Assembly (NCBI GenBank): GCA_004293915.1
Contig: RDZG01000073.1
Location: 1 to 64,000 of the forward strand
DNA length: 64,000 nt
Direction of reading: 5' to 3'
Source: Bacteroidota bacterium
GTDB lineage: Bacteria; Bacteroidota; Bacteroidia; Cytophagales; UBA9547
Every line of letters begins with the position of its first letter. Position 1 is the first letter of the stretch. Positions 24,330 through 64,000 of this stretch are shown one piece after another. The translations under genes were made by a program, and so were the position numbers. The notes beneath the pieces were generated by a model. It was given only the letters and a program-made list of their open reading frames with translations, did no database searches and was not told the DNA's origin.

Positions 24330-27300
24330 ATGGTCCATAAAATTATTCTCGCAATAGCAATTTCGATTACATTTTGCATACAATCATTTTCGCAAAGCAA
24401 ACTTAGTGTAACTGATCAAAAATATAATGAACATAAAGAAGCTGGTGATAAATATTATGACGATGAAGAATATTATTTGGCTGCACAAGAGTATCATAAA
24501 GCCGAAAAATTAAAGCCTACCGACCATTATATTTTGTGGAGGCTGGCAGAAAGCTATCGCCAATATCAAGATTATGATGATGCCGAAGTTTGGTATAGAA
24601 AACTTTGCTCAACTCCTGATAATAAATATCCATTAGCACTTTTTCAGTTAGGATTGATGGAAAAAATCAATAGCAAATACATCGAAGCAGAAGGAACATT
24701 GAGTTTATTTATAAAAAATTTCAAGCCTGTAACCGAAGAAGATAAACTTGAACTAAAAGAAGCAGAATTTGAATATAAAGGTTGTGTGTATGCACTTGAA
24801 CTTTTAAGAAAGCCAGTTAAACAAAATAATTTTAAGCTATTGCCAGCTCCAGTAAATTCAAAAGCTGTTGATTATGCTCCTATGATTTTCTTTCACGATT
24901 CTTCGATTGTAATTACTTCTCAACGTTCTGATTCTAAAGGCTCTGAACTTAATTTGGCAACAGGAGAGGCTAGAAGCGATAACTTTAGATTTGAAAAAAA
25001 TGGTGCCAAATGGGTTCGTCATCATAACGATGATAATTTTGATATCGTAAATACGCCTAAAGACGATGGTGCAGGTGAATTAACACACGACCACAATAAA
25101 TATTATTATACCATTTGCGACCCAGAGTGTGATATTTTTGTGTCAAAAAAAGTTGCGGGTAAGTTTACAAAACCGCTAAAACTTAATAAAAACATCAACA
25201 TTCCTAATTATTGGAATGCTCAACCTACTGTTTCTCCAACGGCTGATACCATGTTTTTTGTTTCTAAAAGACCAAACGGTAAATCTCCAAATGCTAAAAA
25301 AGAATATGATCACGATATTTGGATGAGTATCAATAAAGACAAAACAGGTGCTACTGAAGATTGGGGAACGGCTATAAATCTAACCAATATTAACACTCCT
25401 TATATAGAAATTGCTCCATTTTGGGATGATCATACCAATACCATTTATTTTGCATCAAACGGGCATGTAGGCTTTGGTGGTTGGGATATTTATCAAGCCA
25501 AAGGCAAAAATAGGGATTCTATTATAAATTTGGGGATGCCTTTTAATTCGGCTCGAGATGATTTTTACTTTACATTGGGAAAAGATAAAGGCTATTTGGT
25601 ATCTAACCGTGAGGGTGGAATTGGTAAAGATGACATTTATACATTTGATATAAAAGTTAAAGAATCTACCATTGGCGATGTACCTCGCGATTCGTTTGTT
25701 GATGCACAAAGTATCTCTTCTGTGGGTAGAATTATATTAAACGATACCCAAAAACCTGTTGCCGATTTGCCCGTTTTCTTAAAAGATGAGGCGGGAAATA
25801 CCATTAGCGAAGGTCGCACAAATGCAAATGGAGAATTTCGTTTCGAGAATTTGCCTCCAGATAAAAACTTTAAAATTACTATTAATGAAAATGACCCACG
25901 TCTGAAAACAAGTTTGAATTATGAAGTGGCTAAAAAAGTTCCGTTGATTCCAAATGTAGACGCAACAGGTGTGTTGGTAGATAAAGTAACCAAAAAACCT
26001 TTAGCAAATGTACCTGTGGAAATAAAAGATGCTTCGGGAAAAGTGGTTCAAACAACAAAAACAGATGCAGCTGGAAAATATATAGTAAAAGATTTGGTTG
26101 GTGGTGTGCAATATAAAGCTGCAGTGCCAAGCACTTCGCCTTTGGCAGCAAAAGCAAGTGTAGCATCTAAATTTACTCCACAAACAAATTCTGCATTAAA
26201 TCAAACACAAATTGCAGCTGGTACCACAAATGCTAATTCTAACACTGCAAGTGCCAAAACTGACGTTGCAAGTGGCAACCTTAACGTTGAAAGTGGCAAA
26301 CTGAACGTTACAAGTGGCACCCTTAACGCTGAAAGTGGCAATCTTAACGCTGAAAGTGGCAAAACTAACGTTGCAAGTGGCAACCTTAACGCTGAAAGTG
26401 GCAAACTTAACGCTGAAAGTGGCAAACTTAACGCTGAAAGTGGCAAACTTAACGCTGAAAGTGGCAAACTTAACGTTGCAAATGGCACCCTTAACGCTGA
26501 AAGTGTAAATTTACCATCGTCAAATACTATCAATAGCACTACGCCTAAAACTTCTAATACAATTTCAGAGGCGGTATCAACTCAAAACTCAAAGGCGACA
26601 AATGCAGTAAATAATACTACATCAACTGCCACAACAAATGTGGATGGTGTTGCCCAAACAAATACTACTCCAGTAGTATCTGCTACAAATTCGGTATCGA
26701 CACCTACAAATAGTTTGAATAATACAAGTGCAAAAGTAGGCGATGCAGCAGCAAGTTCTACTACAACACAAGGTTCGAGTGCAACAAATACAGCAACTAA
26801 AGTAGATGGAGTTTCAACAAGTGGAACTACAAATTCGGTATCTACACCTACAAATAGTTTGAATAATACAAGTGCAAAAGTAGGCGATGTAGCAGCAAGT
26901 TCTACCACAACACAAGGTTCAAGCACAACAAATACAGCAACTAAAGTAGATGGAGTTTCAGCAAGTGGAACTACAAACTCAGTATCGACACCCACAAATG
27001 CTTTGAACAGTACAGCCCCAAAAGTAGGTAATACAACATCAACTATCAATACTCAAAATGTAAATTCGAATGCTAAAGTTGATGCTACTACGCAAACAAA
27101 TTTTACAAGTCCAATTGCAACTGCTACAATTCCAGTTTCTACAGGTACAAATGCAGTAAATAATGCTGTTTCAAATACTTCTACGGTTGCAACTACCCCA
27201 AATGTGGACACAAATTTGCCTGCAATTTCTAGTTCTACCACAATCAATAATGCAGCTTCTAACACATCTACTAATAACAAAATAAGTTCAACTCCTGTTG

Positions 27301-28136
27301 AATCCACAACTACAACGTCAGAAAAAACAGAGATTGATAATCAAAATATTGCATCAAATGTAGCTGCATCTGATGCTGTAAGATCTACTAAAAAACCTAC
27401 CAAAGTTGCTAGAGAATATGTAGAAAAAACAAATACAGAACCAGATTATAGTAATTCGGTTTCGAGCGGAACAAAATCGAGAGTTACAATAGATAATTTT
27501 AAAATATCGAGTTCGGCTACAAAACCAACAAAAATATTTTTCGAGAATGTTTATTTTGATTTTAATAGTGCCGAACTCACAGCCATATCTAAGAAAGCAA
27601 TGGATCAAATGGTTTCATATTATGGCGATCACAAAGAAATTCAAATCGAAATAAAAGCTTATTCTGATGGATTTGGAAATGCTGATTACAACAAACAACT
27701 TGCCGAACAAAGAGGAAGAGCTTGTTATGATTATTTTTTGGGTAGAGGTATAGACCAAACAGCTTTATTGATTACACCTGCTGGCGAAAACAATCCTGTT
27801 GCAAGCAATAATTCTTTTGCTGGACGCCAACTAAATCGCAGGGTTGAGTTTTCTATTGTTGGTAGCAAAGCCCCTTTCCAACCCGAAGCTATGGCTCATG
27901 TGCTTGAACCACGTATGACATTGTTTTCAGTTGCCAAAAAATATGGCATGACTATGGCAGAATTAAAAGAATGGAACGGAGGAATAAATGCAGAAGACAT
28001 TAAAGCCTATTCTGTTTTGAGAGTAAAACGTCCATCAACAGCATCAAATATTGCTCCCGCTTCAGTTAATTATGTAAACTCTGGTACCGAAGAAATGCGA
28101 TTTGAAAATGGACAGTTTGTACCTAATATTAAATAG
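24330..28136 (+). CDS. PorE-like envelope protein: TPR, PD40, Cna-B-like, repeat linker, OmpA, LysM
   Basis: A 1268-aa exported protein. A signal peptide (residues 1-22) is followed by TPR-like helices (about 30-165), a PD40/WD40 beta-propeller (about 185-440, with the motifs DDGAGELTHD and SRDDFYFTLG-like blades), two Cna-B/CarboxypepD_reg-type domains (about 465-540 and 548-600), a Ser/Thr/Asn-rich linker of some 450 residues with repeats, an OmpA domain (about 1068-1175, NVYFDFNSAEL...LAEQRGRA, Asp and Arg for diaminopimelate binding kept) and a C-terminal LysM-like domain (1187-1235). The order matches PorE, the peptidoglycan-anchoring component of T9SS. A near paralogue lies at 53396-55888. 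The linker is the main difference. No PorP-like gene neighbours it. Confidence 0.85.
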   Translation: MVHKIILAIAISITFCIQSFSQSKLSVTDQKYNEHKEAGDKYYDDEEYYLAAQEYHKAEKLKPTDHYILWRLAESYRQYQDYDDAEVWYRKLCSTPDNKYPLALFQLGLMEKINSKYIEAEGTLSLFIKNFKPVTEEDKLELKEAEFEYKGCVYALELLRKPVKQNNFKLLPAPVNSKAVDYAPMIFFHDSSIVITSQRSDSKGSELNLATGEARSDNFRFEKNGAKWVRHHNDDNFDIVNTPKDDGAGELTHDHNKYYYTICDPECDIFVSKKVAGKFTKPLKLNKNINIPNYWNAQPTVSPTADTMFFVSKRPNGKSPNAKKEYDHDIWMSINKDKTGATEDWGTAINLTNINTPYIEIAPFWDDHTNTIYFASNGHVGFGGWDIYQAKGKNRDSIINLGMPFNSARDDFYFTLGKDKGYLVSNREGGIGKDDIYTFDIKVKESTIGDVPRDSFVDAQSISSVGRIILNDTQKPVADLPVFLKDEAGNTISEGRTNANGEFRFENLPPDKNFKITINENDPRLKTSLNYEVAKKVPLIPNVDATGVLVDKVTKKPLANVPVEIKDASGKVVQTTKTDAAGKYIVKDLVGGVQYKAAVPSTSPLAAKASVASKFTPQTNSALNQTQIAAGTTNANSNTASAKTDVASGNLNVESGKLNVTSGTLNAESGNLNAESGKTNVASGNLNAESGKLNAESGKLNAESGKLNAESGKLNVANGTLNAESVNLPSSNTINSTTPKTSNTISEAVSTQNSKATNAVNNTTSTATTNVDGVAQTNTTPVVSATNSVSTPTNSLNNTSAKVGDAAASSTTTQGSSATNTATKVDGVSTSGTTNSVSTPTNSLNNTSAKVGDVAASSTTTQGSSTTNTATKVDGVSASGTTNSVSTPTNALNSTAPKVGNTTSTINTQNVNSNAKVDATTQTNFTSPIATATIPVSTGTNAVNNAVSNTSTVATTPNVDTNLPAISSSTTINNAASNTSTNNKISSTPVESTTTTSEKTEIDNQNIASNVAASDAVRSTKKPTKVAREYVEKTNTEPDYSNSVSSGTKSRVTIDNFKISSSATKPTKIFFENVYFDFNSAELTAISKKAMDQMVSYYGDHKEIQIEIKAYSDGFGNADYNKQLAEQRGRACYDYFLGRGIDQTALLITPAGENNPVASNNSFAGRQLNRRVEFSIVGSKAPFQPEAMAHVLEPRMTLFSVAKKYGMTMAELKEWNGGINAEDIKAYSVLRVKRPSTASNIAPASVNYVNSGTEEMRFENGQFVPNIK
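26265..26516 (+). repeat. 21-bp tandem repeats in the PorE-like linker
   Basis: About twelve in-frame 21-bp units encode seven-residue repeats of the form A/V-E-S-G-K-L-N. The central four units are nearly identical. Since 21 is a multiple of 3, copy-number change would alter linker length without disrupting the frame. Confidence 0.9.
26684..27010 (+). repeat. 144-bp tandem repeat in the PorE-like linker
   Basis: A 144-bp unit (48 aa, starting TNSVSTPTNSLN) occurs twice in full (starts 26684 and 26828) and once in part (26972). The copies differ by only a few bases, which points to recent duplication. Confidence 0.88.
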
Positions 28137-44041: not shown

Positions 44042-44947
44042 TTACTCCTTTTTAGAAATTATGTATGAAACACCAACAGTTAATGTAGTTGCAATATTTT
44101 TACTAGAATTGTATGCTTCAGAACCATAATAATTTATGTTATTGATATTAGTAAACCCAAATTGGTAACGAGCATCTAAAAATAATAATGCTTTTTCAGA
44201 AAGGTTATAACTAAATGAAGCACCTAATATCAAACCCATATCTGCATTAAATATTTTGTCTTTCAAAAATGGAAAATCCCCATAATAATGAACTGTACTA
44301 GTTCCATTTTTTATTAAACCATTAGTAATATCAGGTTTATTTTCTTCAATTTTTTCAAAAGTATTGGTATTAATACCATTAACTAACGCTGAAAAATAAG
44401 GACCTACAACTCCATGAATTGAAAAATTATCTTTTTGAACTCCTATTTTAAACAATATAGGTAATTGTATATAATGTAAAAGTAGTTTCTGAGATAATTT
44501 TGTATTTGCGTTAATATCGTTTATTACTAATGTTGAGCCAATTTGTGAATAATTAAGTTCAATTGCATAACCAAAGTTTTTGTGAAAATGATTAGTAACA
44601 TTTAATCCAAAAGTGTAATTAAAAGTAGCATTATTTCTATTTGTTGAAATGTTTGGTACAATTTCTTTCGTAGATGCAACAGGATAATCTAGACCATTTT
44701 CAGGTGATACAATATTTAATAATGCAAAATTACCATTTCCTAAATCTTGTTTAATGTTGGAAAAGCCAATAACATTTTGTGGATTTGAAATCCCACTTAA
44801 TCCGTAACCAACTTTTACTCCAATTGACACTTGTGCAAAGCTTGTAATCGACACGAAAAATAAAAAAATTATATTGGTAAATTTGTTTTGATATTTTGAT
44901 ATTTTGATATTTTGATATTTTGATATTTTGATATTTTGATATTTCAT
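44042..44947 (-). CDS. Outer-membrane beta-barrel protein with an 8-bp repeat after the start codon
   Basis: A protein of about 301 aa. From the ATG at 44947 the first 20 residues are a KYQNIKIS repeat, then a hydrophobic signal segment (FTNIIFLFFVSITSFAQ) and a PorT-like/OMP_b-brl_2 barrel (VSIGVKVGYGLSG...TLTVGVSYIISKKE). Alternating strands and a final aromatic/charged strand fit an eight- to ten-stranded barrel. The frame stays open to another ATG at 45034, but the signal peptide context favours 44947. The octanucleotide tract 44886-44941 means gain or loss of a unit would shift the frame. Confidence 0.75.
   Translation of the reverse strand: MKYQNIKISKYQNIKISKYQNKFTNIIFLFFVSITSFAQVSIGVKVGYGLSGISNPQNVIGFSNIKQDLGNGNFALLNIVSPENGLDYPVASTKEIVPNISTNRNNATFNYTFGLNVTNHFHKNFGYAIELNYSQIGSTLVINDINANTKLSQKLLLHYIQLPILFKIGVQKDNFSIHGVVGPYFSALVNGINTNTFEKIEENKPDITNGLIKNGTSTVHYYGDFPFLKDKIFNADMGLILGASFSYNLSEKALLFLDARYQFGFTNINNINYYGSEAYNSSKNIATTLTVGVSYIISKKE
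44886..44941 (-). repeat. Octanucleotide tandem repeat TTTTGATA x7
   Basis: Seven perfect 8-bp units plus a partial TTT lie directly downstream of the start codon of the outer-membrane protein. 8 is not a multiple of 3, so each unit gained or lost changes the reading frame. Perfect conservation between units suggests recent slippage. Confidence 0.95.
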
Positions 44948-45060
44948 AGTTTTATATAATTTAAACGTGTGCAATTTATATTGAATATTTAAAATATTAT
45001 AAAAAAATATTAGATTTTTTATATAATTCGACAAGATGTGCCTAGTCCATACTTAGTAAA

Positions 45061-45106
45061 ACAAAAAACGCAAGCTATTTTTATTTGATTGCGTTTTTTG
45101 TTTTTA
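45061..45106 (-). terminator. Terminator of the OmpA/PD40 gene
   Basis: ACAAAAAACGCAA (45061-45073) pairs with TTGCGTTTTTTGT (45089-45101), a 13-bp stem. On the minus strand it is followed by T-rich DNA and lies just after the stop at 45115. Confidence 0.8.
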
Positions 45107-45114
45107 AAATATTT

Positions 45115-47202
45115 TTACTTAGATTTTTTAAACCTCGAATTTTTCTTTGTTGTTTTGGGAGCTGCCAAAAAAGCGTTTTTTTCTAAAACTTTAAATTCTA
45201 CCCTTCTATTTTGAGTTCTGCCTACTTCTGTATCGTTAGTAGCGATTGGCATAGATTTTCCATAGCCTTTAAATTTAAGTCTTTTTGATTCTATACCTTT
45301 TGAAATTAAATAGTTTACTACTGCTTGAGCACGTTCTAATGATAGCTTTTGATTAAATTCATCCGATGCAACATTGTCGGTATGCCCTGCAATTTCAAAA
45401 ATCGATTTTGATTGCTGTTTCATCATATCAGCAATCACATCTAAGCTAGTATAAGATGACTCTAAAATTTTTGAAACTTTATATTCAAACAATAAATTTT
45501 CCATTTTTACAACCACTCCCGTATCCATAAATGCATTGAATTCAATATTTAATTGCATTTCCAGAACCTCCATTTTGCCAGTTAAATCTAAAAGTTGTTG
45601 TTTTTTAAAAAATTCTAATGCTTCGCCATTTACTGTGTATTTTTTCCCATAAGGTACCGACATCACATATTCTCCAGTTTTTGGATTTGAAGTACAGAAA
45701 GAAATGGCGTCCTCACTGTTTTCTTTAATTGTAATTGTAGCTCTAACAGGTTCTTTAGTTTTAGCATTTGTACAAACTCCTTTTAGTAATATGCGAGGAA
45801 TTTGATGCAGAATTTTTGGTAAATCAACACGATAAATATCCATATGATGCAAATCGGAATTAAAACCTGCAGAATTAAAATATGCATGATCTCCCTCACT
45901 TGCAATACTAAAACCTTTATCGTCTGATTTTGAGTTTACAAAAGGTCCTAAATTTTTTGGTTTTGACCAGTTTTTCCACGTATCATCCAGACGTGTACTC
46001 ATATAAATGTCATGTCCACCATATCCAATTTGCCCTTTTGAACTAAAATAAAGTGTTTTCCCATCAATAGCCAAGTAAGGATAATCTTCTGCATAAATGC
46101 TATTAATTGTGTTGCCCAAATTGAGTGGAGCCGACCATTTCTTACTCATTTTGTCAAATTTAGAAACATATAAATCGAGTTCTCCAATAGAATTTTTGTC
46201 TTCAATAGCCATTATTAACACATCAGAATCTCCATTCAAATAAAAATTAGAGTGGTCGTTTTTGTTTGCATATTCAGGAATATCTAATGTTTCAGGATTT
46301 CCCCAAGTTCCATCCGATTTTTTATGCGAAATCGAAACTCCATCGCCAGCTTCTTCGCCATCAGCTGTGTAGCGATTTCCAACTATAAGTGTTTGCCCAT
46401 CAGGACTTATTGAAGCCACAAAATTATGCCCTTTGTTGTTCAATGGCATTCCTATATTTTTTGCTTCCTTCCATTTTCCTAAACTGTCTTTTTCGGTATA
46501 CCAAATATCTTGATCTGGAACATTTTCACACTCTTTCACAAAATACATTGTTTTGCCATCAGGTGCAATTTTTGGACTAAATTCAAAACAATCCTTACTG
46601 TTTATGTTTTCTCCAATAACTTCTTTTGTATGTGTATGAGTAGTGTCTTCTATCAAAAAAGGTTCGATTTTAAACTGTTTTTCTGCATTGGTAATTCCAA
46701 TCCCTTTTATTAAATTCCATTGATTAATCTTACTATGATCTAAAACAATTTTCACTCCATAAATGGTTGAATATGTACACATTACAGAAAAAGACTTAAA
46801 CTTAGTTTTGCTTTGTTCTTTGGTTTGTGTGTAAACCACTTTAGGTGTATTATTTTTGTCAATTATTGAAATCGATTTAATTGTGCCAATATTAAAAATT
46901 CCGCCAATAATTACTTGTCGAGCGTTCATCGGTTTTGAAAAACCTACTTTTATTACATTTTCTCTCTTAGTGTCTTCATAATGAACAATATAACCCTCAG
47001 TATATGGATCATGCGGGTCGTTGATATCCGAATTGGGATATACCGAAGCTGGTCCTAAAACAAGTTCTGTAAAATTATTTTCGAGTTGAAATCTATCAGT
47101 ATATTCTAAAACTTGATCAGCCCAAATTACTTGTTGGGCATTAGAAATTTGTGATAAAAAAAGTAATAAAAATGGAACTAAAAACTTATTTATTGTTTTC
47201 AT
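45115..47202 (-). CDS. OmpA-domain protein with F5/8-like domain and PD40 propeller
   Basis: A 695-aa exported protein. Signal peptide (about residues 1-22); a discoidin/galactose-binding-like N-terminal domain (about 24-180, WADQVLEYTDRFQ...NLIKGIGITNAEK); a PD40 propeller (about 195-470, SPDGQTLIVGNR, DGKTLYFSSKGQIGYGGHDIYMSTR); a Cna-B-like domain (about 475-560); and a C-terminal OmpA domain (about 570-680) with the intact peptidoglycan contacts in GHTDNVASDEFNQKLSLERA and NRRVEFKV. It would link the outer envelope to the cell wall. Its paralogue at 55926 shares the same order but has a decayed OmpA domain. Separate from menE by 125 bp. Confidence 0.85.
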   Translation of the reverse strand: MKTINKFLVPFLLLFLSQISNAQQVIWADQVLEYTDRFQLENNFTELVLGPASVYPNSDINDPHDPYTEGYIVHYEDTKRENVIKVGFSKPMNARQVIIGGIFNIGTIKSISIIDKNNTPKVVYTQTKEQSKTKFKSFSVMCTYSTIYGVKIVLDHSKINQWNLIKGIGITNAEKQFKIEPFLIEDTTHTHTKEVIGENINSKDCFEFSPKIAPDGKTMYFVKECENVPDQDIWYTEKDSLGKWKEAKNIGMPLNNKGHNFVASISPDGQTLIVGNRYTADGEEAGDGVSISHKKSDGTWGNPETLDIPEYANKNDHSNFYLNGDSDVLIMAIEDKNSIGELDLYVSKFDKMSKKWSAPLNLGNTINSIYAEDYPYLAIDGKTLYFSSKGQIGYGGHDIYMSTRLDDTWKNWSKPKNLGPFVNSKSDDKGFSIASEGDHAYFNSAGFNSDLHHMDIYRVDLPKILHQIPRILLKGVCTNAKTKEPVRATITIKENSEDAISFCTSNPKTGEYVMSVPYGKKYTVNGEALEFFKKQQLLDLTGKMEVLEMQLNIEFNAFMDTGVVVKMENLLFEYKVSKILESSYTSLDVIADMMKQQSKSIFEIAGHTDNVASDEFNQKLSLERAQAVVNYLISKGIESKRLKFKGYGKSMPIATNDTEVGRTQNRRVEFKVLEKNAFLAAPKTTKKNSRFKKSK

Positions 47203-61200: not shown

Positions 61201-64000
61201 TCTTTTCCCCACCAAGTTTTGTGAAATATAATAATTCGTATGGTGTTCCTAATGCTCCATTTGAATTTGCACCTGGTTTTGTTGTTACCAATACGGTAGA
61301 TTCAACTTATTATGAAGAATATGCTGAATATGCAGTTGCTTTTGTACAGGGTTTAAGAGAAAAATCAGGTGTTGAAGTGTGGGGTTTAAGTATTGGAAAT
61401 GAAATACAGTTTAATCAAACTTATCAATCTGTAGTTTACACCACTTCTCAATACGTAGAAATCGTAAGAAGAGTGGGTAGGAGATTAGCAGCAGCAGGAC
61501 TGAAAACTTTTATTTGGGGTGCAGAAACACTTCAAGGACAAGATTCTGGAAATGATTATTTAAAAGCCTGTCAAGCGGATCCAGAAGTTAGGAATTATTT
61601 TGCTGGATATGCTATACATGCTTATGCAGCAAACGGAGTAGGTCAAGCTGCTCCAAGTTGGGGGAATGTTGTAATTGATTCAAGAGATACAAGATCAAAT
61701 GGTGGTTTAGCTTTAATGCGCCAAAGTGTTATTGCAACTGTTGGACCTGGAGGTGAACCGCATAATGGAAATGGCGGTCCTGGTATTCCAATTTATCAAA
61801 CAGAAACTTCTCAAGGTGGCGTTGCCAATTTTGAAGGATGGGACAACGCAATGGGTATTTTTGCAGGTGTGTCAACTTCTTTAAGTGTGGGTAAAAATTC
61901 TGGATGGTATTACATTGGAATAGGTAAAAGTGCTAAAATGTATTATACCTACAAACACATGGATAAATTTGTTTTTGGAGGTGCAAGGCACATTCCTGTA
62001 ACACAACCAGTAGGCACAAATGTAAATGCGTTTAGAAACCCTGATGGTTCGGTGTGTGTTATGTTAGCAAATGATAATACAGGAATGCGTACTTTTTCAT
62101 TTGGTGGTGTAAATATGCCAACTGCTAATAGAGCTTATTTATCTGTTGATAATTTATTTTGGAAAGATTTGGGTACAATTACAGGAAATATAAGTGTACC
62201 ACCCAATGCTATGCTTACACTTTGGGGTGGAGGAAATGCCTTAGTTGCTGCAAGTGGAGTTACTGTGTCTGGTGCAAATTCAACAAATGTAGCTGGAGGT
62301 TTAATTCAATTTAATGAAACTGTTTTGCCTGCTATTTTAGTTGACAAATCTGTTACTTGGTCAGTAATCACACTAACAGGAAATGCCATCATTAATCAAT
62401 CTGGTTTAATGACTGCTGTATCAAATGGCACAGTAAGAATAAGAGCAACATCTGTGGCTACTCCTACCGTATTTGGAGAGTTAGTTGTTACAATTTCAGG
62501 ACAATATGTTCCAGTAACTTCAATTACAGTTGATGGCTTAGGTGGAGTTCGCTCAGTAGCACCCTCAGCAACATTGCAAATGACTGTAACTGGTGTATTA
62601 CCTTTGATTGCACCTGTAAGAGATGCTAGTTGGACATTAAATCCAGCATCTGGTATTGCTTCTATCAATAGTAATGGATTATTAACAGGAATTTCTGCAG
62701 GTAGAGTAACAGTAATAGGTACTTCTTTGGATAATTTAACTGTAACAAGTCGAGTTGTTGTAACCGTAACCAGTTCAAGTGTAGCAATTACATCTGCAAC
62801 GGTAACTGGAGGCACTAATCAAATAACTACAGGAGGCGGAACGCTTGCAATGACATCTACTTTTAGTCCTGCAAATGCAACTAGTACAACTGTTGGTTGG
62901 TCTATTTCTGGTTCAATTGCAAGTATTAATCCAACCACTGGTTTAGTTACAGCATTGAATAGTGGAAATGGAGTAGTAACAGTAACATCTACTTATGCAG
63001 CTTGGGGAATTTCTGCAACAAGAGTAATAACAATTTCAGGACAGACTTCACTTATAACTTCTGCTACAATTAATGGAATGGGAGGTTCATCTGTGATTAA
63101 TACAGCTAATGGAACATTACAAATGGTAGTTGTAGGATTTTTACCAATAGATGCAACAAATACAACTCCAACTTGGTCTTTATTAGCACCAAATTTGGGT
63201 AACAGCATAAATTCATCAGGATTATTATCTGCAACTACTAATAGTAATGGAGTAATCACTGTACAAGCAGCTTTTGGATCTGTTTTAGCTAGAAGAATAA
63301 TTACAGTTTCTGGACAAAATATACCAGTTACTGCTGCCGTTATTAATGGTCTTGGTAATGTTTCAGTAATTAATACAGCAAATGGAACCTTGCAAATGAC
63401 CACAACTGGAATTACTCCTATTAATGCAAATCAAAATATTATTCCGACTTGGTCTTTACTAACACCAAATTTGGGTAATAGTATAAATGCATCAGGATTA
63501 TTATCTGCTACTACTAATAGTAATGGAGTAATTACTGTGCAAGCAGCTTTTGGGTCAGTTTTAGCTACAAGAATAATTACAGTTTCGGGTCAAAATATTC
63601 CTGTTACATCTGCTGTTGTAAATGGTATTGGTGGTATTTCAGTAATCAATACTGCTAACGGAACTTTACAAATGACCACAACTGGAATTACTCCTGTTAA
63701 TGCAAATCAAAATATTGTTCCGACTTGGTCTTTATTATTACCAAATTTGGGTAATAATATAAATTCATCTGGATTATTATCTGCAACTACTAATAGTAAT
63801 GGAGTAATCACAGTTCAAGCTGCATTTGGTTCAGTTTTAGCTACTAGAGTAATTACAGTATCTAATCAAAATGTTCCGCTTACAGCTGCTACAATCAACG
63901 GTGTTGGTGGAGTTTCGGTTATCAATACGGCAAATGGCACGTTACAAATGACTGTTTCAGGTATTGCTCCTTCAGGTGCAAATACGAATCTTACCCCAAC
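58281..64000 (+). CDS. Giant secreted protein with a GH30-like glycosidase domain and Ig-like repeats (3' end outside the window)
   Basis: The frame stays open from ATG 58281 to the window end, over 1900 codons. Residues 1-30 are a signal peptide. About 31-190 looks like a carbohydrate-binding beta-sandwich, and 190-870 has Ig/cadherin-like domains. Residues about 875-1330 resemble clan GH-A, family 30 type: FFSPPSFVK, acid/base E1041 in SIGNEIQF, nucleophile E1175 in YQTETSQGG, and a C-terminal beta-domain (GGARHIP, FRNPDGSVCVM). From about 1340 on are BIG_2-type Ig-like domains, the last being 91-92 aa repeats. A T9SS C-terminal domain would be expected past the window. It probably attacks a plant or algal polysaccharide, but the substrate is not readable. 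Confidence 0.85.
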   Translation, partial: MNKTILKIRSHVARVGLFLAVCAAGIANAQNGYFQNFTAPGVPSAFTWETSYAVSVQNQALEVIVNKANNFHGVTVTFPTALNLSASARRKVSFRIKTDTTTRKLPYEIGLAFFNAGATNQNGGRRTNKIIYPTGKWQTISFDFNDPAFTTGANSLNFSAVTQLNITFQPMGYMQGNTKVQIDDLAVGNNGVVGQAAIVSPYFTGIDNQEISINTTTSVSIRNAVDSDNLNSNVTFTAASSNTSILPNPTFQTSPILSNSYFSFTSGNGSTGDLQTNRVIKMLMTPNTNQSGMVTVTITATAASQVGATSVPYRYIINVNVKPNIAPTIGTIPTSLTIGSDRKTDIFLDNIVSGNGEVTQILSISGLSSDQTILQNSQIVASYNGISLSGKLSITPIQFSSPASKIFNLTVTVSDNGGIVAGGSDRTSYVIPITVLPTFYNAPTIGVIPNQIDNIITQGPRTIRIEPITDGNGGSRIASVTAVSGNTGILANPTVSYTTGNNFALLTYNSLLVGTTDISVTATNFGAPANSNGNSSFTRSFVMKALNPPQAGYIEPMTVQTIVGAPLNPGTQADGRFSTVAGTWFVENQGTQQTVTINTTTGVMSISMNKDGTAPGYFSGVWYKPYGGGELFDFATSPYISVKLSATNPANLPNLGVAIDLWDVNGYRYGLEANVQVTPTATTYTFCYTGSPCAFDGQPWSNCGGNGRPEFNFSKIKTILFNFGQTVSAIGTGTFTPYSGTITMSDLRLGSDAVGSGSCTLPVPNVVFGETPNPFHLTTQTGPKTVTITGINAGSTPITGKNNNPVNLSAAGAFSPSVLSFNTTTGVAIIQYNTGGAASGVITLTGVASGSNTKTKTFTVTVQAPPASQNVIVTNDLNANFADGFKGQTIDGSPFGVCEIFGDDGGTGLPDSYYENLKDVGIKSMRVGIWDFEPKNDNNDPFVLDKTKLDYTAMGVDFFKKAKDAGVERFLVTFFSPPSFVKYNNSYGVPNAPFEFAPGFVVTNTVDSTYYEEYAEYAVAFVQGLREKSGVEVWGLSIGNEIQFNQTYQSVVYTTSQYVEIVRRVGRRLAAAGLKTFIWGAETLQGQDSGNDYLKACQADPEVRNYFAGYAIHAYAANGVGQAAPSWGNVVIDSRDTRSNGGLALMRQSVIATVGPGGEPHNGNGGPGIPIYQTETSQGGVANFEGWDNAMGIFAGVSTSLSVGKNSGWYYIGIGKSAKMYYTYKHMDKFVFGGARHIPVTQPVGTNVNAFRNPDGSVCVMLANDNTGMRTFSFGGVNMPTANRAYLSVDNLFWKDLGTITGNISVPPNAMLTLWGGGNALVAASGVTVSGANSTNVAGGLIQFNETVLPAILVDKSVTWSVITLTGNAIINQSGLMTAVSNGTVRIRATSVATPTVFGELVVTISGQYVPVTSITVDGLGGVRSVAPSATLQMTVTGVLPLIAPVRDASWTLNPASGIASINSNGLLTGISAGRVTVIGTSLDNLTVTSRVVVTVTSSSVAITSATVTGGTNQITTGGGTLAMTSTFSPANATSTTVGWSISGSIASINPTTGLVTALNSGNGVVTVTSTYAAWGISATRVITISGQTSLITSATINGMGGSSVINTANGTLQMVVVGFLPIDATNTTPTWSLLAPNLGNSINSSGLLSATTNSNGVITVQAAFGSVLARRIITVSGQNIPVTAAVINGLGNVSVINTANGTLQMTTTGITPINANQNIIPTWSLLTPNLGNSINASGLLSATTNSNGVITVQAAFGSVLATRIITVSGQNIPVTSAVVNGIGGISVINTANGTLQMTTTGITPVNANQNIVPTWSLLLPNLGNNINSSGLLSATTNSNGVITVQAAFGSVLATRVITVSNQNVPLTAATINGVGGVSVINTANGTLQMTVSGIAPSGANTNLTP
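63028..64000 (+). repeat. Tandem 276-bp repeats encoding Ig-like (BIG_2) domains
   Basis: Units begin at 63028 (273 bp), 63301 (276 bp), 63577 (276 bp) and 63853 (continuing past the end). Each encodes a TWSLLxPNLGNxINxSGLLS-type domain. The two central units are nearly identical. Confidence 0.9.

Follow-up and report, generated by a model that had tools for sequence, protein, structure and literature searches.

The DNA examined here is a stretch of 64,000 nucleotides (the window) from a Bacteroidota bacterium of the order Cytophagales, family UBA9547 (assembly GCA_004293915.1, contig RDZG01000073.1, positions 1 to 64,000 of the forward strand). It contains a gene for an outer-membrane beta-barrel in which a perfect octanucleotide tract lies between the start codon and the signal peptide, and this is probably a locus of translational ON/OFF phase variation. 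On the sequence, the dependence of the barrel frame on the number of units is certain; with the seven units of the sequenced genome the barrel is ON. The features concerned are given below, and the gene is placed on the minus strand because its start codon is the complement of CAT at 44945-44947.

44042..44947, minus strand: outer-membrane beta-barrel gene of the OMP_b-brl_2 family (PF13568), 301 aa, ON with 7 units, assigned from Pfam, a structural model and a fold match
44831..44885, minus strand: hydrophobic core and cleavage region of the signal peptide, IIFLFFVSITSFAQ, directly 3' of the tract, from the sequence, the homologue alignment and a helix in the model
44886..44944, minus strand: octanucleotide tract, coding strand AAATATCA/TATCAAAA, plus strand TTTTGATA, the only such tract in the genome
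44945..44947, minus strand: ATG start codon, abutting the tract

Both Tandem Repeats Finder (TRF) and a direct scan returned a tract of period 8 with 59 bp, 7.38 copies and 100% matches, confirming the observation from which the original prediction of a phase-variable outer-membrane protein had started; the interval noted there (44886-44947) is the tract together with the ATG. The repeat begins at codon 2, 3 nt past the A of the ATG, and its other end abuts the hydrophobic core of the signal peptide. Its length is far beyond chance: in 30 simulated first-order Markov sequences of 64 kb each, no perfect tract with units of 4 nt or more exceeded 21 bp, compared with the 59 bp observed. At least three consecutive units of TTTTGATA were found at this site only in the 3.85-Mb genome, and 290 other genomes of the order contained no such run. 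Across the GTDB r220 collection (about 85,000 species genomes) three consecutive units occur in 27 stretches, where the octamer is mostly intergenic; one copy lies mid-gene in a radA-like open reading frame (ORF) and another directly 5' of a threonine-synthase-like start in Flavobacterium. Two longer arrays, one of 8.1 units in Stenoxybacter and one of 9.0 in a Thiotrichales bacterium, are both outside called genes, and among the 27 stretches none was observed in which the octamer separates a start codon from a signal peptide.

The coding-strand octamer reads as KYQNIKIS in all three frames with no stop codon; therefore it is the flank, not the tract, that ends translation and throws the switch. 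The in-frame N-terminal peptide is MKYQNIKISKYQNIKISKYQNKFTN-IIFLFFVSITSFAQ..., in which KYQNIKIS is present 2.5 times ahead of the signal-peptide core, so that the repeated octapeptide expected from the original prediction is indeed encoded. In silico, the frame stays open to the end with 4, 7 or 10 units, giving a full-length product of 301 aa with 7 units and 309 aa with 10, while translation begun at the ATG stops at 20, 62, 28 and 70 aa with 5, 6, 8 and 9 units, respectively. The addition or loss of a single unit destroys the barrel frame, as had been predicted for a step of 8 bp. Full length is reached only from the ATG or from in-frame upstream TTGs, and only at unit numbers of 1 modulo 3; no upstream ATG, GTG or TTG was found that rescues the barrel in the other frames (5, 6, 8 or 9 units). 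The only starts in the barrel frame 3' of the tract are two GTGs, one inside and one behind the signal-peptide core, and these would lose the signal peptide because of their position. A translation start 3' of the tract, the circumstance named at the outset as speaking against a switch, is accordingly excluded for any exported product. As downstream starts forfeit the signal peptide and upstream ones give no rescue, an exported product needs the correct copy number.

The assignment of the product to the outer membrane, also part of the original prediction, is supported by several lines of evidence. PF13568 was the sole Pfam match (62.9 bits against a gathering threshold of 27, E 5e-17). The AlphaFold2 model, built on an 18-sequence alignment, is a barrel with a pTM of 0.72, strands of pLDDT >90 and a helix at residues 17-37, and the best solved fold relatives of the barrel in Foldseek were OmpA, OmpX, Ail, NspA and OmpW. 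The alignment with 17 homologues showed a short n-region in these proteins, with the tract-encoded residues forming a clean insertion after the first Met-Lys; paralogues in the same genome (25-35% identity) likewise have ordinary short N-termini. A single unit would encode MKYQNKFTN-IIFLFF, an ordinary signal peptide, so the gene may be a plain barrel gene that has gained six further units. The barrel is presumably exposed at the cell surface, where phage, predators or hosts may recognise it. Three of the features by which contingency loci are recognised are found together here: an uninterrupted simple repeat that is longer than chance and has a unit that is not a multiple of three, a position in a coding region where copy number sets the frame, and a surface or envelope function, indicated by the PF13568 barrel, the signal peptide and the OmpA/OmpX/NspA-like model.

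In the proposed mechanism, replication slippage would raise or lower the number of 8-bp units that separate the ATG from the signal peptide. At unit numbers of 1 modulo 3 (4, 7, 10) the ribosome would pass through into the signal peptide and barrel, and the KYQNIKIS repeats of the tract peptide would be a harmless, lysine-rich extension of the n-region; at other unit numbers translation would stop after 20-70 residues and no barrel would be exported. A useful rate of slippage and the maintenance of the switch by selection are presumed.

Arrangements of this kind are known from Proteobacteria. In Neisseria autB, AAGC repeats lie directly 3' of the start codon, within the signal-sequence DNA, and their copy number sets the frame (PMC5118866). 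The autA and autB autotransporter genes of Neisseria and Haemophilus carry 2-40 copies of this tetranucleotide, with proven variation between isolates (PMC5118866). The barrel gene shares their layout of start codon, repeat and signal sequence, with copy number setting the frame, but has an octamer rather than a tetranucleotide, encodes a small barrel rather than an autotransporter, and belongs to a Bacteroidota-type genome of 31% GC. The 301-aa PF13568 product has no passenger domain; the gene works like autB and is not an autB homologue. The opa genes of Neisseria offer a second parallel, as CTCTT pentamers in the leader switch an outer-membrane barrel by frame-shifting, at a measured rate of about 1e-3 (PMC3960869). 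Both systems combine an outer-membrane barrel with repeats in the signal-peptide coding region, although the opa pentamer lies inside the leader of a multicopy family and the octamer lies before the hydrophobic core. The barrel is not a member of the Opa family, its only Pfam match being OMP_b-brl_2 and its likeness to small barrels being at the fold level.

Repeats with units of similar size have also been described. The octanucleotide simple sequence repeats (SSRs) GCATCATC and ATTATTTG of Haemophilus influenzae are proposed phase-variation repeats (PMC2651432); they share the 8-nt unit but are located 5' of genes or between them rather than immediately 3' of a start codon. Heptamer long simple sequence repeats (LSSR) such as TAACTGA occur in Beggiatoaceae, Cyanobacteria and some Bacteroidetes, with long arrays in Bacteroidetes (PMC4679880). 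They belong to the same 7-8-nt class as the abundant repeats of the genus studied here, but are mostly intergenic and have been discussed as sites of translational regulation or rearrangement, not as coding frame switches (PMC4679880). A limited literature search found no report of an SSR frame switch in the phylum Bacteroidota. What is new here is the organism, the post-ATG position of the octamer and a heptamer partner locus.

This partner locus came from a search for tracts with a long open frame 3' of them, and two weaker cases are listed with it.

G000:C30:110179-110930 (= L133:10179-10930), plus strand: candidate phase-variable lipoprotein, OFF, consisting of ATG, 11 nt, (CACAAGC)12, IFCFKGLIFLGTIFFLTGC and 217 open codons
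G000:C143:51948-52802 (= L122:11948-12802), plus strand: SDR gene in a NeuB/cytidylyltransferase/aminotransferase sugar cluster, (ATTCTCC)4.4 placed 19 nt 3' of the ATG; weaker case
L130:10503-11135, plus strand: MORN_2 protein, (TTTTA)4.6 inside the signal-peptide hydrophobic core, an opa-like position; weaker case

At the lipoprotein locus (C30), IFCFKGLIFLGTIFFLTGC is a lipoprotein-type signal sequence with a lipobox. The 12 units present put it out of frame, giving a product of 39 aa, and 10 or 13 units would bring it into frame. No start was found between the tract and the signal sequence, and a TAA directly 5' of the tract closes the lipoprotein frame. At face value, the lipoprotein would be the OFF-state counterpart of the ON-state barrel. 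No Pfam family matches it and nine other genomes of the family contain no relative, and for this reason the locus is possibly a decayed gene. In the SDR gene, the preceding 60 nt resemble a tandem copy of its own start plus tract. The short (TTTTA)4.6 tract of the MORN_2 protein may be plain composition.

The repeat census covered a sample of 1.23 Mb of this genome; for the two congeners the samples were 0.42 and 0.28 Mb. Tandem repeats of 7 nt are numerous in all three, with tracts of at least three units at 28 per Mb of sample in this genome and at 96 and 25 per Mb in the congeners. Period 7 is dominant among the slippage-type repeats of the genus, which are mostly intergenic; in this genome 28 of the 34 sampled tracts are outside called genes, with 82% of the sample coding. 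Simple repeats are a general feature of the genus, and the octamer tract belongs to this wider repeat population. Nine tracts in the sample have at least seven units; in two of these the repeat separates the start codon of an envelope gene from its signal peptide, the gene being ON in one case and OFF in the other.

Some heptamer tracts have features of their own. On L122 (G000:C143:40001-60000) many (AATGGAG)n/(ATTCTCC)n tracts recur between genes with a hairpin, ATTCTGC-N9-GCAGAAT, and the arrangement looks like a dispersed composite repeat element; the heptamer AATGGAG/ATTCTCC is also present on contigs C22, C66, C99 and C151 of this genome and was not found in the congeners. Four heptamer tracts (L151:9638-9702, L151:11844-11888, L122:12801-12850 and L149:6346-6427) start at or a few bases from a stop codon and give the impression that the stop region was itself copied in tandem. 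In the congener G001, in-frame heptamer tracts of 30-32 bp appear as if inserted into a 4971-aa ORF (twice) and a glycosyltransferase-like ORF (L173:5703-5734, L173:9224-9253 and L164:19559-19590). Several contigs from all three species end within long heptamer tracts (L083:1-99, L139:10459-10557, L175:1-119 and L200:1-99), and the true lengths of these tracts are underestimated because assembly breaks fall in them.

Several points weigh against phase variation at the barrel locus. The copy number comes from one assembly of the species, seven units is a modest number, and a neutral tract would be ON by chance in one case out of three. Neither the barrel gene nor the lipoprotein locus has orthologues in the two congeners. 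Since similar intergenic tracts are numerous, the presence of a repeat is by itself no evidence of a selected switch, and the count of two among nine was noticed post hoc, one of the two being the barrel tract itself. The genus is full of similar tracts without an obvious switching role, and the barrel tract could be a passenger: the replication or repair background of the lineage would make 7-8-nt repeats, one of which expanded by chance in a tolerant n-region, varies rarely and is not kept for switching. The density of 25-96 tracts per Mb across the three sampled species, with period 7 predominant and most tracts lying between genes, is in line with such a background, as are similar heptamers in the middle of genes (a fatty-acid-hydroxylase gene, the glycosyltransferase-like ORF and the 4971-aa ORF), where switching is hardly sensible. 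Yet non-triplet tracts avoid genes, and two of the nine longest nevertheless occupy exactly the gap that separates a start codon from its signal peptide. If a repeat that breaks the frame of a useful gene were not under selection, it would moreover be expected to be lost or point-mutated, and the barrel tract is perfect over its 59 bp. A chance expansion of this sort is considered rather unlikely.

Translation independent of the tract, either from a start elsewhere or with the tract only modulating expression as part of the leader, is very improbable. The frame is open 5' of the ATG, with in-frame TTGs at -27 and -87, and in the RNase H gene on L122 a tract-containing N-terminus proved to be an annotation effect, the real start (MVEIFTDG) being 3' of the tract. 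The upstream TTGs of the barrel gene, however, share its frame and precede the tract, so that they would be switched too; the other frames offer no start that reaches the barrel at 5, 6, 8 or 9 units, the downstream starts come without a signal peptide, and RNA structure around the tract showed no excess over shuffles (z 0.53). It is equally hard to believe that three-unit steps merely lengthen the n-region and tune export with no ON/OFF effect, as 4, 7 and 10 units are all in frame and differ by 8 residues of n-region, but one-unit steps, expected to be commoner than three-unit steps, abolish the product, and the mature protein would not vary because the variable part leaves with the signal peptide.

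Translational phase variation thus remains the favoured reading of the barrel locus, and the original prediction is partly supported as an interpretation. A broader proposal can be made only tentatively. The genus may possess a phasome of 7-8-nt repeats, in which lineage-specific envelope genes (the barrel, the lipoprotein and a nonulosonate-type sugar gene) gained stop-free heptamer or octamer tracts, placed either after the ATG and ahead of the signal peptide or close to the start, the source being repeats that slippage generates throughout the genome; this would be SSR switching in one lineage of a phylum whose switching is known mainly from DNA inversions.

The surroundings of the barrel gene comprise three further features.

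44948..45062, minus strand: 5' region of the barrel gene, presumed to hold its own promoter; no promoter match above shuffles and no RNA structure at the tract
45063..45099, no strand assigned: 11-bp perfect inverted repeat, AAAAAACGCAA-15 nt-TTGCGTTTTTT, with a T run, read from the sequence
45115..47202, minus strand: PD40/OmpA-family protein of 695 aa, the upstream neighbour, kept in both congeners at 67-69% identity

The inverted repeat at 45063-45099, which is missing from the list of a stricter terminator scan, is a probable terminator of the upstream OmpA-family gene; the barrel gene would therefore probably form a separate transcript with its own promoter. A search 5' of the gene with sigma-70 and Bacteroidetes-type consensus sequences gave no match above shuffles, and no Rfam families were found at the locus. 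The block of ComEC, AMP-synthetase and OmpA genes is kept in both congeners with other genes next to it in place of the barrel gene, which has no match in either at E<=1e-3. This absence at a conserved block indicates a lineage-specific accessory gene. The gene content of the genome, with CHU_0125/PorE-like OmpA proteins and PF13568 barrels, and its AT-rich composition point to Bacteroidota. Elsewhere in the window, a 21-nt repeat of 12.7 copies (26240-26505) lies within a 1268-aa ORF (24330-28136) and a 276-nt repeat of 2.8 copies (63167-63952) lies near the window end.

If the tract slips, individual cells would turn a surface barrel on and off, a behaviour relevant to escape from phage and predators in Bacteroidota-type bacteria, a phylum whose known switches are mostly invertible promoters. 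With the barrel ON and the lipoprotein OFF in the same genome, a natural test pair is at hand and, if the reading is true, these two loci would tie the abundant heptamer repeats of such genomes to a concrete function.
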